Origin: Fidelibacterota bacterium | Lineage (GTDB): Bacteria; Fidelibacterota; Marinisomatia; Marinisomatales; Marinisomataceae | Assembly: GCA_014240005.1 (NCBI GenBank) | Contig: JAAZXT010000050.1 | Span: forward strand, 1-35,107 | DNA length: 35,107 nt | Direction of reading: 5' to 3' | In this document: positions 886 to 19,512 of the stretch, piece by piece | How the letters are laid out: every line of letters starts with the position of its first letter | Position numbering within the stretch: the first letter of the stretch is position 1 | Program-made: the position numbers and the translations under genes | Notes under the pieces: generated by a model | What the model was told of the DNA's origin: nothing | The model's database searches: none | The model's input: the letters and a program-made list of their open reading frames with translations, nothing else

Positions 886-3602
886 TAGTGCGCCTCAAAC
901 CAAGATGGGCCAAAACCACAGTCGATTTCTACTGGAACGTCTAGCTGTATTGCATTTTTCATGTTTTTCACTACCATTTCTGATATATAATCTAATTCAT
1001 CTTTATGAACCTCTAGAAGCAATTCATCATGAACCTGTAAAATCAATTTTGATTTTAGATTTTTGTCTTTTAAATCTTTGTATATTTTAATCATTGCAAG
1101 CTTAATCATTTCAGCTGCTGTTCCTTGAATAGGCATATTAATAGCCATTCGTTCTGCAGCATCTCTTCGGATCTTATTTTGACTATCTGAGTCCCATACA
1201 GCTCTCTTCCTTCCTAGCAGAGTCTGTACAGATTTCTCAGATTTAATAAGCACTTTAGATTTCGCAATATAGCCTTCAATACCTTTATACTTGCTAAAAT
1301 AAGCGTCTTTTATCTTTTTAGCTTCCCCAAATGGAACATCCAATTCTTTGCTTAAACGAAATGGACCTGCGCCATACATAATTCCAAAATTTACTATCTT
1401 AGCTGTACGTCTCATCTCTAATAATATATCTTCATCATTTTCGATATTAAATATATTTTTTGCCGTAAATGTGTGAATATCTTCTCCATTATTTAGGGCT
1501 TCAATTAAAGCTTCATCTTGACTCAAATGCGCCATGACTCGCAACTCAATCTGAGAGTAATCTGCAGAAAAAATTTGATACTCTGATGACTGTGCTCTAA
1601 TAGCTTTTCTTACATCTTTTCCATCTTCTGTTCTAATAGGAATATTCTGAAAATTTGGACTACTTGAAGAAAGTCTTCCTGTAGCTGTCATCGTCTGATT
1701 AAATGAAGAGTGAACTCGATTAGATACTGGATTAATATTGGTTGGTATTGGATCAAGATAGGTATTTTTCAATTTAAATAACTTTCTATACTCTAAAACC
1801 AATTTTGGAAGTTCATGCTTATCTTTTAATTCCGATAAAACAGCTTCTGCCGTAGATCGCTTCTTAATCATCGGTAATTCTAATTTATCAAATAAAATCT
1901 CAGCAAGCTGTTGGGAAGAATTCACATTAAAATCTTGATCTGCTAATTTTGTGATCTCATTATGAAGGGCATCAATTTTTATACCAATTTCATTAGAACG
2001 TATTGCAAGATAATCTTTATCAACAAAGATCCCATTAAATTGCATGTCAATTAAAACAGGTAATAAATCAATTTCAATCGCTTTAAAATAATTATATAAT
2101 TTTTGATTTTTTAATTCTTTCAGAAAAATTTCAGTTAATTCAATAACAACATCGGCATCTTCTGCTGCATAAAAAGATACATCTTCTAAGGTAACTTGGT
2201 CCATTGTTATCTGATTCTTACCTAATCCAATTAAGTCTTGTATAGGGACCATCTTATAATTCAGATGTGCTAAAGATAAATTATCTAACTTATAGGATCT
2301 GACATTAGGACTAATCAAATGTGCAGCAATCATTGTATCAAAAGCAATTCCATTTAAATTAATTCCATATCGTTTCATGATTAATGCATCATATTTAATA
2401 TTTTGCCCTGTCTTTGGAATAGCTGGATTTTCCAATACTGGCTTTAGAATATCAATTGCAACTTGAAGATCATCCTCTCCAAATAAATTATCTATCTTAT
2501 CTTTAAAACGTATTGGAACGTATACGCCAGTATCTTTTTTGACAGAAAAACTAAACCCTACAATCTCAGCAATCATAGGATTTACAGATGTGGTTTCTAA
2601 ATCAACAGATAACCATTCATTTTCTTTAATTGAACTAACAAACGATGTTAATTGATCTACGCTTGTAAGATTTTCATATTTCTTTTCTCGTTTTACTGTG
2701 TGAGTGTCAACAGATTCATTTGAACCAATCTTTTTCAGTAAACCCGAAAATTCTAATTCTTTAAAAATGTCTTCTAATTTGGCTGAATCCATCTCTTTTT
2801 TTTCAAAATCATTAATGGTGGCCTCAATATTGACATCAGTTAGAATCGTTACTAATTGCTTGCTTAATAGAGCATTTTCTTTGCTATTTAATAGCTTCTC
2901 TCTCATTTTTTCATTGCTAATATTGTCAATCTCTTCATATATATTTTCAATAGATCCAAAGTCTTGTATCAACTTTTTTGCTGTTTTTGGACCCACTCCT
3001 TGAACGCCTGGAACATTGTCTGAACTATCTCCCATCAAACCTAGTAAATCAATGATGTGTTCTGGACCAACTCCCCATTTTTCTAATACTTTTTTCTTAT
3101 TAAACACTTCTTTTGCACGCTTCCTCGCTTGAGGGGCATATAAGAATGTTTTGTCGTTAATTAATTGCATAAAATCTTTATCTCCACTGACAATATTGCA
3201 TTGAAGATTTTCTTTATCACACATCTTAGCAACTGTTCCTATAATATCATCCGCTTCTACTCCTCCCACTCTTAATATTGGAATATTCATTGCCTCTAAA
3301 AGTTCCCATAAATACGGAAGTTGTGTCTGAATTTCATCAGGCATTGCAGATCGATTGGCTTTATAATCTTCATAGAGTTCATGTCTAAAATTTTTACCCT
3401 TTGAATCGAAAGCTGTTACAAGATAATCTGGATTTTCCTCTTCAATCAATTGAAATACTTGGTTAGCAAATCCAAATACAGCGCTAGTAGGTGTACCGGC
3501 GGTATTTGTTAGTGGATTTCTAATAAGAGCGTAATGTGCTCTGTATAAAGTGGCATAACCATCAATGATAAATAATCTTTTTTGTTTTTTTTCAGAACTC
3601 AT
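885..3602 (-). CDS. polA: DNA polymerase I (5'-3' exo, 3'-5' exo and polymerase domains)
   Basis: Motif A DYSQIELR, O-helix RRTAKIVNFGIMYG, motif C QVHDELLLE. Proofreading motifs DLETTS, GQNIKYD and YAAEDAD are retained. FEN-like N-terminus. Confidence 0.98.
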   Translation of the reverse strand: MSSEKKQKRLFIIDGYATLYRAHYALIRNPLTNTAGTPTSAVFGFANQVFQLIEEENPDYLVTAFDSKGKNFRHELYEDYKANRSAMPDEIQTQLPYLWELLEAMNIPILRVGGVEADDIIGTVAKMCDKENLQCNIVSGDKDFMQLINDKTFLYAPQARKRAKEVFNKKKVLEKWGVGPEHIIDLLGLMGDSSDNVPGVQGVGPKTAKKLIQDFGSIENIYEEIDNISNEKMREKLLNSKENALLSKQLVTILTDVNIEATINDFEKKEMDSAKLEDIFKELEFSGLLKKIGSNESVDTHTVKREKKYENLTSVDQLTSFVSSIKENEWLSVDLETTSVNPMIAEIVGFSFSVKKDTGVYVPIRFKDKIDNLFGEDDLQVAIDILKPVLENPAIPKTGQNIKYDALIMKRYGINLNGIAFDTMIAAHLISPNVRSYKLDNLSLAHLNYKMVPIQDLIGLGKNQITMDQVTLEDVSFYAAEDADVVIELTEIFLKELKNQKLYNYFKAIEIDLLPVLIDMQFNGIFVDKDYLAIRSNEIGIKIDALHNEITKLADQDFNVNSSQQLAEILFDKLELPMIKKRSTAEAVLSELKDKHELPKLVLEYRKLFKLKNTYLDPIPTNINPVSNRVHSSFNQTMTATGRLSSSSPNFQNIPIRTEDGKDVRKAIRAQSSEYQIFSADYSQIELRVMAHLSQDEALIEALNNGEDIHTFTAKNIFNIENDEDILLEMRRTAKIVNFGIMYGAGPFRLSKELDVPFGEAKKIKDAYFSKYKGIEGYIAKSKVLIKSEKSVQTLLGRKRAVWDSDSQNKIRRDAAERMAINMPIQGTAAEMIKLAMIKIYKDLKDKNLKSKLILQVHDELLLEVHKDELDYISEMVVKNMKNAIQLDVPVEIDCGFGPSWFEAH

Positions 3603-3646
3603 AACTTAGCAGGATTTTACACCCGCTAAATTATGAAAATAAGACA

Positions 3647-6070
3647 TTAGAAACTATAAGTTAATGACATTCCAATTTCTCTTGGAGGTGCAAAAGACTT
3701 GAATAGTTTCTCTTCATATAATGGAGGCTCTAAACCAAAAATAAATCCTCTATCTGCATAATTTTCATCGAGAATATTCTTTGCATAGAAACCTAAATTA
3801 ACTTTATTAAATGAATGAGAATAATATGCATTTAATAGATGATATGGATCTGATTCATACTCATCGTGTTCAGAATCAAATACAAACCCATCTTTTCCTG
3901 CAATCTCAATCACTAAAGAGTTGTTTTCATCGAAGTTATAGTTAAATGATAAGCTATAATTCCAGTTTGGAGAGTGCGCTTTTTTACCATGTGCATGATT
4001 ATCATGATCTCCATGATCATCATCGTGCTCGTCTTCTCCATGTTCGTCATGATCTCCATGATCATCATCGTGCTCGTCTTCTCCATGTTCGTCATGATGT
4101 CCTAGCTCAACTTCAGAACTCAATAACCCTAGAGTAGCATTAATAGTAAATTTATTACTTAGTCTAAATTCACCGCTTGATTCAGAACCGTATTCATAAC
4201 CTGATTCAGCATTTGTCTTAAAAAAGGCAAACGCATTAGGATTTATTGGATCCAACTGATCACTTGTTTCATAAATATGATTATCATGCTCTAAATAAAA
4301 TAGAGAACTTGATAATTTGATATTATCAGTATACCATCTTATTCCAGTAGTAATATCATAGTAAGTCTCTTGATTATATGTTTTTTCATCAGCATCCAAA
4401 TATGGATTTTGATTTATACCTCCAGGATGATATCCTTCAGCATAATAAGCAAACCAATGAAGGTTTGGAGTGGGATGCATTTCATAAGCAATCTTATATG
4501 AATTATTAAAATCGCCCATAATATCAAAGCTTGCACCTTGGTCACTAAAATCATGATATGTCATATCCCTCGCTTCTGATCTAAATGCTAAAGAAAGTGA
4601 TGAATCATTTTTCAAATTATATGCAACTTCACCATATGCAGACTTTGTAGTAATATCATAACTAGAAGATAAACCTGTCTCAGAACCTCCGAAAATATAT
4701 CCAGTAGCGTTAGTTTTTTCTTCATAATTAGAATGATATAATCCAATAACATAGTCTACTTTATTATCATCAGCAGGATTTGATCTTAATCTGAAGTCTA
4801 CAGTTCTTGTATCAATATCTCTATCGAATGAATCAAAGAAGTCATATTGATATCCTTCAACTGTTGGATCAAAATTATAAGGATCTTGAAGCCAGAAACT
4901 ATAATTTCCCCAATCTGAGTCATAGCTCTGCAATGTTTCATTGTTTGACATACCAATATTCAAATCAGCAAAACCCTCACCAAGATCATAAGTATAGTCA
5001 GCTATAAAAATCTGTGATTTTTGACTATCTTTACCTGGATTGTCTGAATATGTAATATTATCAGTATTATTATCTGGAGACCAATGATCGTATCCATTGT
5101 CAAAATCAGAGTAAATCATTGTATACTTTTGCGTGATATTATTATCGCCGCCATCTTTTAACAGTTTCGCTCTAAATGATGTCTCATCTCTATTAGCTGA
5201 TGCATCACTATCTAAAGCAACATTTTCTTTATATCCATCAGAAACATTAGAGTGACCTACTAATCTTAACTTCCAACCACTATCAAGAGGCAAGTTGTAA
5301 ACTAATCCATTTGTAAAAGTATTGTATGAACCAAACTGTGTCATCACATACCCTTCTTTTTTATCTGTTGGATCGTTGGTTTTGAAATTAATTAAACCAG
5401 AAGATGCGGCTGCGCCAAATAAACTGGTTTGAACACCCATTAATACTTCTACTTGTTGCATATCAAACAAAGGTGTAATCATACCAAGCTCAGATAAGTC
5501 CATTCCATCCAATACTAGTCCTACATAAGTACTTGGAGGGCCCTGATCCGCATATCTGCTAGTAGACCCTTCTCCACGTATCTGAAAATATCTCGGTCTA
5601 GAAGTTCCACCTGCATAATTTAGATTAGGAACTTTTTGTATTAAGTCACTGAAATGTTGTCCCTTTCTAACTTCCAACTCATCATTAAAGATAATTGCTG
5701 AACTAGCTAAATCACCTTCATTGACTTTACGAAGCGACGATATAACTCTTACACCCTTCAGCGATACAGCTTGACTGACAAGCTCAAATCTTAAGGGTTG
5801 TATAGTCAGATCTTTTAAATCAAGATTGACAACTGCATTTTTATATCCAATAACAGATACTTGAACTTTTCCGCTTTCAGAAAGACTAATCGTAAATCTT
5901 CCATTATCATCGGTACTAGTTCCGACAATGATTGTCCCCTCATCATCAAGAACAGATACATTAGCATCTTTTAATGGAAGACCTGTGCTTTGATCAAGGA
6001 CAAGTCCTATAATTTGTGATTGAGCAAAAGTAATGCTCATAAATAATAATGTTAAAATAAAATTCTTCAT
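3647..6070 (-). CDS. TonB-dependent outer-membrane receptor with N-terminal carboxypeptidase-regulatory-like domain and a His/Asp-rich loop
   Basis: Signal peptide MKNFILTLLFMSITFAQ; CarboxypepD_reg-like segment (IIGLVLDQSTGLPLKDANVSV); plug-like segment; C-terminal aromatic beta-strand SLTYSF. Start set at 6070 rather than 6124 because AAGGAG lies just upstream of this ATG and a signal peptide follows it. Confidence 0.9.
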   Translation of the reverse strand: MKNFILTLLFMSITFAQSQIIGLVLDQSTGLPLKDANVSVLDDEGTIIVGTSTDDNGRFTISLSESGKVQVSVIGYKNAVVNLDLKDLTIQPLRFELVSQAVSLKGVRVISSLRKVNEGDLASSAIIFNDELEVRKGQHFSDLIQKVPNLNYAGGTSRPRYFQIRGEGSTSRYADQGPPSTYVGLVLDGMDLSELGMITPLFDMQQVEVLMGVQTSLFGAAASSGLINFKTNDPTDKKEGYVMTQFGSYNTFTNGLVYNLPLDSGWKLRLVGHSNVSDGYKENVALDSDASANRDETSFRAKLLKDGGDNNITQKYTMIYSDFDNGYDHWSPDNNTDNITYSDNPGKDSQKSQIFIADYTYDLGEGFADLNIGMSNNETLQSYDSDWGNYSFWLQDPYNFDPTVEGYQYDFFDSFDRDIDTRTVDFRLRSNPADDNKVDYVIGLYHSNYEEKTNATGYIFGGSETGLSSSYDITTKSAYGEVAYNLKNDSSLSLAFRSEARDMTYHDFSDQGASFDIMGDFNNSYKIAYEMHPTPNLHWFAYYAEGYHPGGINQNPYLDADEKTYNQETYYDITTGIRWYTDNIKLSSSLFYLEHDNHIYETSDQLDPINPNAFAFFKTNAESGYEYGSESSGEFRLSNKFTINATLGLLSSEVELGHHDEHGEDEHDDDHGDHDEHGEDEHDDDHGDHDNHAHGKKAHSPNWNYSLSFNYNFDENNSLVIEIAGKDGFVFDSEHDEYESDPYHLLNAYYSHSFNKVNLGFYAKNILDENYADRGFIFGLEPPLYEEKLFKSFAPPREIGMSLTYSF
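4001..4090 (-). repeat. Perfect 2 x 45-bp tandem repeat encoding a 15-aa His/Asp/Glu-rich unit
   Basis: tcatgatctccatgatcatcatcgtgctcgtcttctccatgttcg at 4001-4045 is repeated identically at 4046-4090. It encodes (DEHGEDEHDDDHGDH)x2, followed by a His-rich tail DNHAHGKKAH. Confidence 0.97.
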
Positions 6071-10000: not shown

Positions 10001-10315
10001 TTACTCCTTTTCAGTAAAGCTAAACTCTTCGCCAACAGCTACATTCCTTAAACTATCAAGTTCTTCTGAAATGTCTTTATTTGTCTTAACAAGATTTGAT
10101 ATTTCTGATCGATAAGAAAAAACAGATTTTAATGATATAATATACCCTACAATGACACCAATCATTATAAATAGTATAAAAGCTAAATAACCAGGAATAG
10201 AATGTCCATTATCTCTAAAAAAATATATCATAATGGGCTCACTATTTTTATCAAATAGCAAAAAAGTTCCAGCTAAGATACTTAATACAAATAATACTCT
10301 TAATACTCTAAACAT
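10001..10315 (-). CDS. LapA-domain (DUF1049-like) small membrane protein
   Basis: Two TM helices plus a coiled tail; FDKNSEPIMIYFF...IPGYLAFILFIMIGVIVGYIISL pattern. ATG overlaps the miaB stop (TAATG). Confidence 0.65.
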   Translation of the reverse strand: MFRVLRVLFVLSILAGTFLLFDKNSEPIMIYFFRDNGHSIPGYLAFILFIMIGVIVGYIISLKSVFSYRSEISNLVKTNKDISEELDSLRNVAVGEEFSFTEKE

Positions 10316-11652
10316 TATGCTCCTGTTATCTCTTTTCCACGTAAAATGACTCCAGTAGCCTCTGTAATTTCTACTGGAATGATATCCTTAATTTTACTAT
10401 GATTTTTTTCTACAATCACCCATTCATTTGAATCAGTTCTTCCCGCCCAATGGTTTATCGATTTTTTACTCTCTTTCTCTATTAAAACTTGTTCAAAATT
10501 TCCAATCTTTTTCATATTTAGCTCAAGAGTATGCTTCCTTTGTAGATTAATCATCTCATTTAATCTATCTTTCTTAACTTGTTCTGAAATTTGATCTGAA
10601 AATTGTTCTGCTCTTGTATAAGGTCTTGGAGAGTATTTGAAGGTAAATGCTATATTAAATTTAATTTTTTCCATTAAATCTAATGTTTCTCTAAACTGTT
10701 CATCAGTCTCTCCCGGAAATCCTACAATAATATCTGTAGATAAACCACAATTAGGCATAATCTCTCTTATTTTCTCAGCCATATAATAAAAATGCTCTCT
10801 TGTATATGTTCTATTCATGCGTTTTAACAATTCATTTGATCCTGACTGCATTGGAAAATGAACATAATTACAAATATTATCTCTGGAAGCCATAACTTCT
10901 AATAATTCTACATTAATATCTTGTGGATGAGGCGATGTATATCTAATTCTTTTAACACCAGGAATATCAGATATTGTTAATAATAAATCAGCAAATGATT
11001 TTTTTTCATGTTTATAGGAATTTACATTTTGTCCCAATAATGTAATCTCAACATAACCTTGATCTACTGCTTTTTTTACTTCAGTAACAATACTATCAAC
11101 ACTTCTGCTTCTTTCTCTACCTCTAGTAAAAGGTACAATACAAAAAGAGCAAAACTTATCACAACCTCTCATAATAGAGACCCATGCATTGAATGTGTCT
11201 CCCCTGCTTGGGAACATATCTTCATATACTTCATATCTTGATAACTTAGTATCAACAATACTCTTTTTTTCTATTAGATGTCTATTCATTAACTTAGGAA
11301 TATTTCTATAAGAATCGGGGCCTAAAATAATATCAACATATGGTTTATTCTTCAATAAATCATCTTTCAAGTTTTGAGCCATACAACCAAGAACTCCAAT
11401 GATTAAATGTGGATTTTCTTGCTTTATCTTACGGAGATTTCCTAAACGTGAATGCACTTTAACTTCAGCATTCTCCCTTATAGCACAAGTATTAAGAAAG
11501 ATAGCATCTGCATCATACAAATCTTGTGTTTTTTCTAAACCTAAATCTACTAATATACCTTCAACAAGTTCAGAATCAGCTGTATTCATTTGACAGCCAT
11601 AAGTTTCAAGGACAAACCGTTTTATAGGGCTATTTTTTATTTTTGTCGTCAT
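10315..11652 (-). CDS. miaB: tRNA-2-methylthio-N6-dimethylallyladenosine synthase
   Basis: ETYGCQMNTADSE N-terminal cluster site, radical-SAM CDKFCSFCIVPFTRGRERSR, C-terminal TRAM-like segment. Confidence 0.97.
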   Translation of the reverse strand: MTTKIKNSPIKRFVLETYGCQMNTADSELVEGILVDLGLEKTQDLYDADAIFLNTCAIRENAEVKVHSRLGNLRKIKQENPHLIIGVLGCMAQNLKDDLLKNKPYVDIILGPDSYRNIPKLMNRHLIEKKSIVDTKLSRYEVYEDMFPSRGDTFNAWVSIMRGCDKFCSFCIVPFTRGRERSRSVDSIVTEVKKAVDQGYVEITLLGQNVNSYKHEKKSFADLLLTISDIPGVKRIRYTSPHPQDINVELLEVMASRDNICNYVHFPMQSGSNELLKRMNRTYTREHFYYMAEKIREIMPNCGLSTDIIVGFPGETDEQFRETLDLMEKIKFNIAFTFKYSPRPYTRAEQFSDQISEQVKKDRLNEMINLQRKHTLELNMKKIGNFEQVLIEKESKKSINHWAGRTDSNEWVIVEKNHSKIKDIIPVEITEATGVILRGKEITGA

Positions 11653-11673
11653 AAATCTTTAATTTTTTATTTG

Positions 11674-11691
11674 TTGGGTAATGTTGGGTAA
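11674..11691 (+). repeat. TTGGGTAA x2 direct (cluster A)
   Basis: ttgttgggtaatgttgggtaa; copies at 11674-11681 and 11684-11691. Confidence 0.9.
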
Positions 11692-11785
11692 AATTACAAC
11701 CCTACCAAACTTGTGTATGTATATGAATGATTATAGGTCCCCACACAATAAAATACAATGATTTATAGAATTATCTGATATGGTA

Positions 11786-11831
11786 TTTACCCAACAAGAT
11801 TTTTGAAAAGTTGGGTAAAATTCTTACCCAA
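11786..11831. repeat. TTACCCAA / TTGGGTAA / TTACCCAA inverted cluster (cluster B)
   Basis: Perfect 10-bp inverted repeat TTTACCCAAC(11786-11795)...GTTGGGTAAA(11810-11819), followed by a second perfect 8-bp pair TTGGGTAA(11811-11818)-aattc-TTACCCAA(11824-11831). Confidence 0.9.
11811..11831 (-). terminator. Possible hairpin terminator of the cargo gene
   Basis: On the minus strand, 3 nt after the lipoprotein gene stop: TTGGGTAA-GAATT-TTACCCAA then CTTTTC. The stem is short and the T-run weak. Confidence 0.35.
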
Positions 11832-11834
11832 TGA

Positions 11835-13880
11835 TTAAAAGGTTAGATTCCCTTGACTAGTGATTTTATTAATTATACCCTTATTAGAGCCTTCGAGTCT
11901 CCTTTCAACTTTATCGCTATTAGGTATACCATAGTTATAATAAGAATCTTGAACATTAAAAAAGATTAAATTATCATTAGAGTCTTTAACAATAGAGTTA
12001 GTATAGCCACTAGTATTTTGTATATTCATCCTAGTCGAGAATAAACTATTTCCATTCTCATCCAACTTATAAAATTTATACCTAGAATCATTAGAATTGT
12101 CATTTCCTATAATAATAAAGCCATCTTCTGTTTGTATAATTTTTCTTGGGTTAGAAATAGGATATACATTGTAAAAATATGATATCATTTTAAAGTTTTC
12201 ATCAAATCTTATAATTTTAGAATCTTGAAATAATATAAATCCATAACTGGTTTTAAAAATACCATTATCAGTACCATTATTCTGTGAATTCGAATCATAT
12301 TGAATGGTATTTACTAAACTACCATTTAGATCTCTTACAATAATGTTATTATTTCCATCGTCATCGAAGTTATTGCTATATAGGTTATCATTATGTACTA
12401 AAACATCTTCAGAATCAATATTATTAACTATATCAAAGTTTGAATCTAAAACAAAATCAGAAAACAAAAAATTTCCATTTGAAAGTTCTAATAAATTACG
12501 TCTTAAAACGGAGTAATTTCCACTATATTGGGTTGTACTGTAATCTAAAGATATCGATGTAAAGTCATCATTAACTAAATCATATGTTGATGAAATTCTA
12601 TGAAAGAATAGATTGCCCCTAGTTTGATCTGAGAAATCTTCAGTAGCAGAAACTAATATTATTTCTCCAGAATCTAATTCTAAAATATCTAATATTATTG
12701 AAGGATTAACACTTAATCCTTCAATAAAATTTCTTGAAATAATTTCTTTAGAAATTGGATCTATTTCAACTACTATTGGAGCTATATAGCTATGTACATA
12801 ATTAACGCCGCTATCACTAGATTTATCAATATTTAATCCCGCAGAAGCCATTAAATAATTTCCATTATTAAGTATTGTTCCAACTGCACTGAAACCATTT
12901 GGAAAATGATTAATTTCTTTGCCTATGACGTTTTTAAATAAATTAAACTGAAGGTTATTATATCCTTCAGAAATATCTAAGAATACTGAACCGGGAGAAC
13001 TATAGTCCGTCCCATCATATGCTTGAAAAGTAAATAAATCTGCACCGACAGAAAGAGGAGAGAAGTACGCAGTGTCATTGGATACTGTAACTGTTCCATT
13101 CGATGGAAAGTCTACAATCTCAAATGATACTGAATAACTATCCACATCCGATGCGTTCAACTTAATCGGTTTTACTTCACCTATCGTTGCCTCTACATCA
13201 TATATATCATTCACATTGGGAGGATCATTGAGTGCATTCACTACAATGGTTCCATTCCCAGATCTTATAATAGATCGTCCTGAACTATCATATACAGAAA
13301 ACTTAAAAGTATCGACTCCATACCAATTAGATGACGGAACATAGGTTGCAATATTTCCACTTAACGATAACGTTCCATTAGAGACTTGTTCATCAATTTG
13401 AAACACAATGGTATCCCCATCATATTCATTTGCCTGCAATGTAATATCGATAGAATTATCTTCATTAGTACTTACAGAAACATCAATAGACTCTGGGTCA
13501 TCATTCACTGGATTAATGGTAATCTGAACCGATCCTTGATTACTGGATTTAGAACCATTGGATGCAAAATAAGTAAACGTATCACTTCCGTTAAAATTAT
13601 TATTTGGTGTATAAGTACCTGCATTTCCACTTAAAGAAAAAGTTCCGTTTGTTGGTTGAGATGCAATCGTAAATGTAAGTGGGAGATTTGCAGGATCAGC
13701 TCCTTCTAAATTAATTACAGAAGGGACATCTTCGTTTGTAGTGAGTAAAATGTCTTCAACAACAGGTGCACTTGGTTCAGTAGGTCCGGTTGGTTCAGTA
13801 GGAGTATTACCTCCGCCACCTCCACCACCGCAAGTCCATATAAATAAGACACTGAGAGTTATAAGAAATTCTTTTTTCAT
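11835..13880 (-). CDS. Surface lipoprotein with about three tandem cadherin/Ig-like repeats and a C-terminal propeller-like region
   Basis: MKKEFLITLSVLFIWTCGGGGGGG (lipoprotein-like signal and Gly linker). Repeats end in ...NGTFSLSGNAGTYTPNNNFNGSDTFTYFASNG..., ...NGTLSLSGNIATYVPSSNWYGVDTFKFSVYD... and ...NGTVTVSNDTAYFSPLSVGADLFTFQAYDG.... ORF extends to a GTG at 13883; ATG at 13880 preferred. Confidence 0.8.
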   Translation of the reverse strand: MKKEFLITLSVLFIWTCGGGGGGGNTPTEPTGPTEPSAPVVEDILLTTNEDVPSVINLEGADPANLPLTFTIASQPTNGTFSLSGNAGTYTPNNNFNGSDTFTYFASNGSKSSNQGSVQITINPVNDDPESIDVSVSTNEDNSIDITLQANEYDGDTIVFQIDEQVSNGTLSLSGNIATYVPSSNWYGVDTFKFSVYDSSGRSIIRSGNGTIVVNALNDPPNVNDIYDVEATIGEVKPIKLNASDVDSYSVSFEIVDFPSNGTVTVSNDTAYFSPLSVGADLFTFQAYDGTDYSSPGSVFLDISEGYNNLQFNLFKNVIGKEINHFPNGFSAVGTILNNGNYLMASAGLNIDKSSDSGVNYVHSYIAPIVVEIDPISKEIISRNFIEGLSVNPSIILDILELDSGEIILVSATEDFSDQTRGNLFFHRISSTYDLVNDDFTSISLDYSTTQYSGNYSVLRRNLLELSNGNFLFSDFVLDSNFDIVNNIDSEDVLVHNDNLYSNNFDDDGNNNIIVRDLNGSLVNTIQYDSNSQNNGTDNGIFKTSYGFILFQDSKIIRFDENFKMISYFYNVYPISNPRKIIQTEDGFIIIGNDNSNDSRYKFYKLDENGNSLFSTRMNIQNTSGYTNSIVKDSNDNLIFFNVQDSYYNYGIPNSDKVERRLEGSNKGIINKITSQGNLTF

Positions 13881-13943
13881 CACTTTAGATTAATTTAACC
13901 CGAAGTGATCCTAATAGTAAATATAAAAAAGTAAGACTCGTTG

Positions 13944-13963
13944 TTGGGTAAAGTGTTGGGTAA
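13944..13963 (+). repeat. TTGGGTAA x2 direct (cluster C)
   Basis: ttgttgggtaaagtgttgggtaa; copies at 13944-13951 and 13956-13963, same orientation as cluster A. Confidence 0.9.
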
Positions 13964-13995
13964 TAGACTATTATAAATAATTTATTAAGATAAAA

Positions 13996-14046
13996 TTAAC
14001 AGACATATGTCTCAAGGACAAATTTTTTGATAGGAAGGGGTTGCAT
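13996..14046 (-). pseudogene. miaB 5'-end remnant (16 codons then stop)
   Basis: Reverse strand ATG CAA CCC CTT CCT ATC AAA AAA TTT GTC CTT GAG ACA TAT GTC TGT TAA = MQPLPIKKFVLETYVC*. Intact miaB has ...SPIKRFVLETYGCQMN. The ATG directly abuts the M23 peptidase stop codon (TAAATG). Confidence 0.8.
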
Positions 14047-14943
14047 TTATTTTATATATCCTGTGAAAAAATATTTTGCAGGATCTTCTACTTTTTTATT
14101 CTTATGCACTTCATAATGCAAGTGAAATCCAGCTGCTCTTCCACTGTTTCCAGACTTTCCAACCAAATCTCCTCTTTTAATTTTTTGGCCCTTCTTTACA
14201 TTTATTTTATATAAATGCGCATAGATTGTTTCATAACCATAGCCATGATCGATCTTAACATACCTTCCCCAACCAGAATCATACTGAGCCTTTTTAACAA
14301 CGCCATCTCCCGTTGCTATAACATCAGTGTTTAAATTAACAGCAAAATCTAATCCACGATGCATCCTTCTCTTTCCATCTATTGGATCTGTTCTATAGCC
14401 ATATCCCGATCCCAAGTAGGCCTCTACAGGACTAATAGATGGAATATGTGAATACATTTTTTCGTTAGATTTAATTTTATTGAAAATAGTACTATAACTA
14501 TCTTTTTCAAGATTTACAGTATATGACAAAGAATCAATCTTATCCTTAAGCTGAAACAAAATACTAGTAGCATCTTTATCTTCAATAGAAGTCTCTTCTA
14601 CAGAACCTCCCGTACCTTGAATCTTAATATCTTCACTAAGAGGTGGAATTGCAGCATAAGTTCTAAGCTCTTTATCTCTTTCTTCTATTAGTAATAATTC
14701 TTGTTCGAGCTGAGTTATCTTAGTTAAAAGTTCTTGAGATACATCTGCATATTTTTCGTCTGTTTCTTTCAATTTATCTTGATAGTACTGATTAGAAAAT
14801 CCTACAGATAGATAATAATTAGCACCAATAAAAATGATTAGAATTAATGCAAAACTAGCCAAAATATTTAATACTGAGAAATTGATCTGATGTAACCTAT
14901 CAGAAGATAAATATTGAAATGAGAAGAATTTTTTCTTTATCAT
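14047..14943 (-). CDS. M23-family metallopeptidase (LytM-like), membrane anchored with coiled coil
   Basis: GYGYRTDPIDGKRRMHRGLDFAVNLNTDVIATGDGVV...GYGYETIYAHL...GNSGRAAGFHLHYEV. Confidence 0.95.
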   Translation of the reverse strand: MIKKKFFSFQYLSSDRLHQINFSVLNILASFALILIIFIGANYYLSVGFSNQYYQDKLKETDEKYADVSQELLTKITQLEQELLLIEERDKELRTYAAIPPLSEDIKIQGTGGSVEETSIEDKDATSILFQLKDKIDSLSYTVNLEKDSYSTIFNKIKSNEKMYSHIPSISPVEAYLGSGYGYRTDPIDGKRRMHRGLDFAVNLNTDVIATGDGVVKKAQYDSGWGRYVKIDHGYGYETIYAHLYKINVKKGQKIKRGDLVGKSGNSGRAAGFHLHYEVHKNKKVEDPAKYFFTGYIK

Positions 14944-18586: not shown

Positions 18587-19512
18587 AATTTATCAATCTC
18601 CTCAGCATTAAAGCCTAATAATTTCACTTCTAGATTTAGTTCAATATTAAATTTTTCTTTTACAGTATTCTTTGCTTTCTTAATAAGAGATATCATATCA
18701 TCAGCTTTTGCATCTCCATTATTCACAAAAAAGTTGGCATGCTTATTGGAAATCTTAGCACCTCCTATTGAAAATCCTTTTAATCCTGACTGGTCTATTA
18801 ACATTCCAGCAGAATGTTTAGTAGAAGGATTCTTAAATACACTACCTGCAGAACGATAGTTCAATGGTTGCGTATTCTTTCTTCCTAATTTTGCTAAATC
18901 AAAATTATCCTGAATGATTTTTTTTGGTGATTTTTTAAGCTTAAATGTTGCTGACAATAAAATAATATCTTTACTGAAAGAAGATGATCTATAAGAAAAA
19001 TCAATGTCTGCTTTAGAAAGTACTTGAATTTCATTTCTCCCATTTAATAACTCTACAGTTTCTAAATTTTCTGAAATCTCTCCACCCCAGGCACCCGCAT
19101 TCATCATCAATGCACCGCCAAGTGTTCCTGGCACTCCAATAAGATTTTCTAAGCCTTTTAAATCATGCTTCATAGATTCTCTTACCATCTTACCCAACAT
19201 AATTCCACACTCTACATAAATCTTATCTACATCAATATTAATTGTTCTTAAGCAATGTTTAATCGATACTACAACACCCTTAATACCCTGATCACTTATC
19301 AATAAATTTGATCCTGAACCTATAATAGTCACTGCCTGTTTATGTTCTTTACTCAATCTAACAATGTCGATTAAATCCTTCTTGTTTGATGGTAACACAA
19401 ATAATTCAGCTGGACCTCCAATTCCATATGTGGTATGCTTCTGCATTATTTCATTAACAGAAACAGTTGCATTGGTCGTACCTATAATCTTTTGTCTCAA
19501 AGACTCAATCAT
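18583..19512 (-). CDS. murB: UDP-N-acetylenolpyruvoylglucosamine reductase
   Basis: HTTYGIGGPAELFVLPS, GSGSNLLISDQGIKGVV, GVPGTLGGALMMNAGAWGGEI. Confidence 0.97.
   Translation of the reverse strand: MIESLRQKIIGTTNATVSVNEIMQKHTTYGIGGPAELFVLPSNKKDLIDIVRLSKEHKQAVTIIGSGSNLLISDQGIKGVVVSIKHCLRTINIDVDKIYVECGIMLGKMVRESMKHDLKGLENLIGVPGTLGGALMMNAGAWGGEISENLETVELLNGRNEIQVLSKADIDFSYRSSSFSKDIILLSATFKLKKSPKKIIQDNFDLAKLGRKNTQPLNYRSAGSVFKNPSTKHSAGMLIDQSGLKGFSIGGAKISNKHANFFVNNGDAKADDMISLIKKAKNTVKEKFNIELNLEVKLLGFNAEEIDKL

Follow-up and report, generated by a model that had tools for sequence, protein, structure and literature searches.

A recombinase-free insert that replaces the start of miaB in a Fidelibacterota bacterium is probably a non-autonomous integrative cassette

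Results

The insert in the 5' end of miaB

We analyzed a stretch of 35,107 nucleotides (nt) from a Fidelibacterota bacterium of the family Marinisomataceae (assembly GCA_014240005.1, contig JAAZXT010000050.1, positions 1 to 35,107), hereafter the window, in which a 2,406-bp insert carrying a single gene, for a surface lipoprotein, separates miaB from the upstream gene for an M23 peptidase and supplies miaB with a new start. We put the probability at roughly 75% that the insert is a non-autonomous integrative cassette and that an integrase from another element carried out its recombination in trans. The source genome is a draft assembly (812 kb, 63 contigs, 93.5% complete), and it was compared with 23 further species of the same genus, in which genomes are roughly 1 Mb in size.

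Along the minus strand of the window, ftsA and ftsZ are followed by a small gene, the M23 peptidase gene, a 16-codon open reading frame (ORF), the lipoprotein gene and miaB. In each of the 20 sister genomes that retain the locus (20/20), the M23 gene runs straight into miaB, with no lipoprotein gene between them; these empty sites agree with the proposal of an initial annotation, made from the window sequence, that miaB ancestrally adjoined the peptidase gene. The three other species (G007, G010, and G022) gave no miaB match, and since a close M23 homologue was absent as well, the locus is simply missing from these assemblies. The MiaB of the window is 92 to 97% identical to that of its closest sister genomes, whose starts differ. 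The features of the locus are as follows.

10315..11652, minus strand: miaB, N-terminus replaced, native from codon 13 on (ORF list; MiaB comparison)
11606..11616, minus strand: right copy of the core TTTGTCCTTGA, attR-like, encoding FVLE of MiaB (alignment to the G006 empty site)
11617..11652, minus strand: insert-derived miaB codons 1 to 12 (MTTKIKNSPIKR) and new start codon (identity to G006 of 27/60 immediately upstream of the core)
11617..14011, no strand assigned: inserted cassette, 2,406 bp with one core copy (absent from 20/20 sister genomes)
13996..14046, minus strand: orphaned former miaB start, ORF MQPLPIKKFVLETYVC followed by a stop, native as far as the core and insert-derived beyond (sequence; 38/39 identity to G006 just before the core)
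14012..14022, minus strand: left copy of the core TTTGTCCTTGA, attL-like (alignment to the G006 empty site)
14047..14943, minus strand: M23 peptidase gene, native neighbor upstream of miaB (ORF list and sister-genome comparison)

The 16-codon ORF (14046-13996) directly follows the M23 stop codon, and the window copy of miaB begins MTTKIKNSPIKRFVLETYGC at 11652. The two copies of the miaB start, at 11590-11628 and 13996-14034, are repeated in direct orientation at a distance of 2,406 bp, with 79% identity over 39 nt, and 10 of the 12 residues of their shared protein core are identical. The initial annotation had described both the ORF and this core correctly; its remark that most of the DNA differences fall at third codon positions is only just true, as 4 of the 7 differences in 36 nt do so.

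The empty site of G006, the closest relative, reads ATGCAACCTCTTCCTATCAAAAAATTTGTCCTTGAAACTTATGGCTGTCAAATG. The left copy in the window follows it, with one mismatch, through an 11-bp core, TTTGTCCTTGA, and then switches to GACATATGTCTGTTAA; the right copy opens with the insert sequence CCTATAAAACGG and is native from the core onward. Identity to G006 adjoining the core was 38/39 on the left and 39/39 on the right, and about 97% further out (290/300 and 294/300), while inside the insert it was only 25/60 and 27/60. Both copies are hybrids switching at the same 11 bp, and the alignment places the crossover within this core. Because the left copy is native through the core and the right copy from the core onward, their likeness lies far beyond chance. 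The core itself is common to the window and its closest relatives, G006, G002, and G023, and differs in other species. The boundaries of the insert coincide exactly with the shared core, and, as had been proposed for an incoming element, it provides a new N-terminus (codons 1 to 12), a new ATG and the upstream region; since its own miaB-like sequence takes the place of these codons, miaB stays intact. A palindrome, AGACATATGTCT (window 14000-14013), adjoins the core within the insert-derived part of the orphan ORF.

Arm-like repeats at the insert ends and search for a recombinase

The non-coding ends of the insert (340 nt) contain seven copies of TTGGGTAA, in both orientations, and each end has a tandem pair; none of 2,000 Markov simulations yielded more than four copies of any 8-mer. 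The copies are distributed as follows.

11672..11691, plus strand: tandem pair, TGTTGGGTAA twice, candidate integrase arm-type sites (repeat count; tandem also present beside the integrase genes of L153 and L154)
11787..11796, minus strand: further arm-like copy, inverted (repeat search)
11810..11831, no single strand: two more arm-like copies, GTTGGGTAA (11810, plus strand) and TTACCCAA (11824, inverted) (repeat search)
13942..13963, plus strand: tandem pair, TGTTGGGTAA twice with 12-bp spacing, at the other cassette end (repeat search)

These repeats look like the arm sites of tyrosine integrases. The 20-mer TGTTGGGTAATGTTGGGTAA, corresponding to tandem TGTTGGGTAA, was found in 3 of the 2.9 million viral contigs of IMG/VR and adjoins a tyrosine-integrase gene in two of them. 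In the IMG/VR phage contigs L153 and L154, the tandem lies upstream of the integrase gene, and in L153 related repeats are also present downstream, i.e., on both sides, in a clear arm-site layout. Elsewhere in the source genome, exact TGTTGGGTAA 10-mers were merely scattered; those at window position 19190 and on contigs C35 and C46 were dismissed as chance, being single copies in or beside ordinary genes. A class-wide DNA search with the insert end returned a match in G003 (E value of 2e-6, about 31 nt) and otherwise short AT-rich matches only. As the G003 match lies inside an ordinary gene, it was discarded, and no related end outside the window was accepted.

The ORF list shows no recombinase inside the insert, which bears out the initial annotation on this point, and only two Phage_integrase (PF00589) matches were found in the 93.5%-complete genome, both at XerC/XerD-like genes.

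Integrase-free cassettes at tRNA genes of sister species

Sister insertions were traced via homologues of the lipoprotein, and exact copies of attachment (att) sequences were counted across the genus. Recombinase-free cassettes of one or two genes (1.2 to 3.4 kb) were present at tRNA-Arg in G008, G012, G019, and G022, at tRNA-Pro in G007, and at tRNA-Phe in G008. Lipoprotein cassettes are found at tRNA-Pro of G007 (3.4 kb, integrase free, perfect 45-bp repeat) and at tRNA-Arg(tct) of G008 (1.9 kb, repeat 43/44); the G008 cassette in the 5' end of tRNA-Phe is a weaker case because its repeat is just 24/28 identical. At tRNA-Arg, G019 has two short genes resembling lipoproteins, and the 1.17-kb cassette of G022 (L196:2534-3748) encodes one 309-amino-acid protein without a Pfam family. 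The sole gene of the 1.5-kb G012 cassette (L194, reverse complement 2905-4462) is GmrSD_N/HNH restriction-like; it also has a PADLOC match to NsnA, a defense-type gene as a single-gene unit.

The 3' end of tRNA-Arg was single copy in 11 genomes and duplicated in 5, and that of tRNA-Pro was single in 6 and duplicated in 2, by the G007 cassette and by an integrase-bearing element in G019. A scan of all 35 tRNA and transfer-messenger RNA (tmRNA) genes of G019 gave exactly two att-flanked insertions, at tRNA-Arg and tRNA-Pro, indicating that the att-repeat method does not yield false positives wholesale.

The G019 element at tRNA-Pro spans 9.7 kb (G019:C1:367669-377440; L191, L146), and an integrase-bearing element of 6.6 kb lies at tRNA-Arg in G007 (L145:3551-10221). 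The cargo of the former includes a gene resembling a CusA-type efflux pump. The latter, occupying a site that holds integrase-free cassettes in four sister species, also has a serine resolvase-like gene and a gene for a protein fusing ParB_N and DruA (Druantia) domains.

A tRNA-proximal end of about 135 bp, containing a tandem AATGGTGTTAAT pair, is common to two elements at tRNA-Pro, the G007 cassette, which lacks an integrase, and the G019 element, which has one (local score of 106 versus a best of 35 in 100 shuffles). The flanks of empty sites are unrelated, and G015 looks like the exact empty site of G019. Such ends, common to elements with and without an integrase, make action in trans likely for these cassettes. 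At tRNA-Arg, the left ends of the G008 and G022 cassettes are 97.4% identical over 115 bp, compared to 80.9% for the host flanks, and their cargoes are unrelated, the pattern expected if small shells are transferred and their cargo is exchanged. A scan of viral contigs with the tRNA-Arg end found nothing.

Origin of the miaB insert

The suggestion, already made in the initial annotation, that the miaB insert is a non-autonomous cassette gains strength from the cassettes at tRNA genes of sister species, one of which has an end in common with an integrase-bearing element. Such a cassette would consist of an attP-like site, that is, the 11-bp core flanked by repeated GTTGGGTAA arms, and one surface-lipoprotein cargo gene. 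A tyrosine integrase provided in trans by another element would recombine the cassette core with its counterpart in the miaB 5' end. The former start would be left behind as a 16-codon orphan, and the miaB-like sequence of the insert would become codons 1 to 12, bringing a new start codon and a new upstream region. The circular junction of the cassette is predicted to read CCTATAAAACGG-TTTGTCCTTGA-GACATATGTCTG. We infer that a tyrosine integrase has acted in trans at miaB and that the cassette may still be able to move; the step from the tRNA cases to miaB is one of analogy, because neither the genus nor the viral scan yielded a partner element for miaB.

Several observations weigh against this interpretation. 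Across the genus, no integrase-bearing element was seen at miaB, the tandem GTTGGGTAA arms are confined to the source genome, and the insert is present in one genome only, with no second miaB cassette holding other cargo between the same boundaries, for which the initial annotation had suggested looking. A scan of viral contigs with the miaB att core found nothing, and at their opposite ends the tRNA-Pro elements of G007 and G019 show no significant similarity. In addition, the arm motif has two matches in the GTDB genome collection, neither of them close to an integrase, and L153 and L154 look like related phages; for these two reasons, we take the arm match in these phages as support and not as proof.

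Alternatively, a larger integrase-bearing element might have entered miaB and later deleted its integrase and most of its genes, keeping the lipoprotein gene between intact ends. A dead relic of this kind would fit a segment that lacks an integrase and is present in a single genome, and the integrase-bearing elements at tRNA-Arg and tRNA-Pro make decay from such parents possible. We nevertheless consider it unlikely, given that one- or two-gene cassettes occur at at least six further places in sister species and that the att repeats are 98 to 100% identical at tRNA-Arg of G008 and tRNA-Pro of G007. Repeated independent decay also explains less well why integrase-free cassettes of different species share ends but differ in cargo.

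Allelic replacement, i.e., homologous import from a strain naturally carrying the lipoprotein gene in the miaB region, would account for the miaB-like sequence at the insert end, and homologous flanks would permit a double crossover. It is highly improbable, however, since at either core the flanks are as close to the sister genome as is normal (about 97% over 300 nt), with an abrupt switch at the 11-bp core, while the orphan miaB start remains. Moreover, no other genome of the genus has the lipoprotein gene at miaB, and for the C-terminal half of the lipoprotein the other 172 genomes of the class hold nothing similar except for one marginal 49-residue match. The hybrid junctions at one 11-bp core led us to reject both homologous import and simple tandem duplication, the latter in line with the initial annotation. 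Least credible of all is an assembly chimera, for which the draft state of the assembly (63 contigs) leaves room, or a tandem duplication of the miaB start with later divergence, since both copies are hybrids switching at the same core and not one duplicated stretch that drifted, the G+C content of the insert resembles that of the window (30.5% versus 30.9%), and mis-assembly would not be expected to produce terminal arm repeats.

Returning to the trans-recombined cassette, we tentatively suggest a broader picture, to which we give somewhat less than even odds. The genus may maintain a shared pool of minimal recombinase-free cassettes, each an attP end with one or two cargo genes, swapped between species at fixed sites (tRNA-Arg, tRNA-Pro, tRNA-Phe, and miaB) by integrases borrowed from other elements, in a dispersed, integron-like manner without an integron. 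The cargo of this possible pool would be mostly surface lipoproteins and, once, a GmrSD-type defense gene.

The cargo lipoprotein

The single gene of the insert encodes a lipoprotein with Big_9/cadherin repeats.

11835..13880, minus strand: lipoprotein gene with a lipobox-like Cys, three immunoglobulin/cadherin-like domains (about residues 38 to 305), and a variable C-terminal half (Pfam Big_9/Cadherin; AlphaFold)

The AlphaFold model is confident for about residues 45 to 305 only, the predicted local distance difference test score being mostly under 60 in the C-terminal half, and homologues keep the N-terminal repeats and differ in this half. The protein may act at the surface or in adhesion, perhaps in phage or neighbor recognition. 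Viral-contig matches to the lipoprotein alignment were rejected: they are confined to the repeat domains, and two short contigs that were inspected look like phage structural genes. Paralogues in G019:C2, G015, G006, and G008:C2 have no clear att repeats. In G019:C2, two related lipoprotein genes stand in tandem without obvious att repeats (L112:7325-11309), with a truncated third copy (L112:6953-7204), the cluster lying beside a HupE-like gene.

Comparison with known systems

Islands and prophages at dusA insert into the 5' end of a tRNA-modification gene, supply a replacement 5' end, and leave the original start behind; their borders are imperfect direct repeats, they have a dusA-specific integrase, and they are much larger, one being deleted within a 48-kb segment (PMC4482086). 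We judge them a better protein-gene precedent than the SXT elements at prfC to which the initial annotation had pointed. The miaB insert resembles them in its position in the gene 5' end, the replacement start, the orphaned original start, and the imperfect direct repeats, but its target is miaB and not dusA or dusB, and it is 2.4 kb long and lacks a recombinase. In a limited literature search we found no report of miaB itself as an integration target, the closest being the MiaB-like rimO, listed as a target in Polaromonas (PMC4482086).

Tycheposons, from streamlined marine genomes, are tRNA-associated elements of 4 to 200 kb with a tyrosine recombinase and variable cargo (PMC10872708). The elements described here share the tRNA association, variable cargo, a tyrosine recombinase in the family, and a streamlined, probably marine, host genome, but the cassettes are only 1.2 to 3.4 kb long and recombinase free, and one (2.4 kb) sits in a protein gene, miaB. 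The ssrA islands of Dehalococcoides also carry different cargo at one attachment site between direct-repeat borders; there, unlike here, the target is tmRNA, and a conserved serine recombinase is part of the integration module on sixteen islands (PMC3146451). Integron cassettes and clusters of attC sites lacking integron integrases (CALIN) are likewise small units that lack their own recombinase and can be mobilized in trans (PMC11389934), whereas the units found here are bounded by att repeats of host genes and scattered over separate genes rather than arrayed. No integron integrase was found in the 93.5%-complete genome, its two PF00589 matches being XerC/XerD-like. Genes for replication, packaging, or phage control, as in phage satellites (phage-inducible chromosomal islands [PICI] and minimalist islands [PICMI]), are absent from the insert, which holds the lipoprotein gene only.

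cis-Mobilizable elements (CIMEs) are flanked by attL and attR, lack a recombinase, and lie beside, or at the same sites as, integrase-bearing relatives. They were described from families of integrative and conjugative elements (ICEs) and integrative and mobilizable elements, and accretion with an ICE has been proposed as their way of moving. The miaB insert, too, has attL and attR and no recombinase. The tRNA-Pro cassette shares att and arm sequence with an integrase-bearing element, its candidate partner; for the miaB cassette, no such partner was found in the genus or among the viral contigs scanned. Unlike CIMEs, each cassette comprises only one or two genes, and we saw no conjugative element.

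That an element can replace the 5' end of a tRNA-modification gene is established for dusA islands, and att-bearing elements without a recombinase are known as CIMEs. Less usual here are the size of one or two genes, the recurrence at several sites in the species of one genus, and the fact that a cassette has an end in common with an integrase-bearing element. The insert documents miaB as an integration site at which the start is replaced and the gene is left unbroken, and within a genus of roughly 1-Mb genomes, the same sites are repeatedly occupied by recombinase-free cassettes of one or two genes with exchangeable surface or defense genes. If these cassettes do move in trans, very small genomes could trade surface and defense genes at hardly any cost to the genome, and the sites described here, both empty and occupied, make such movement directly testable.

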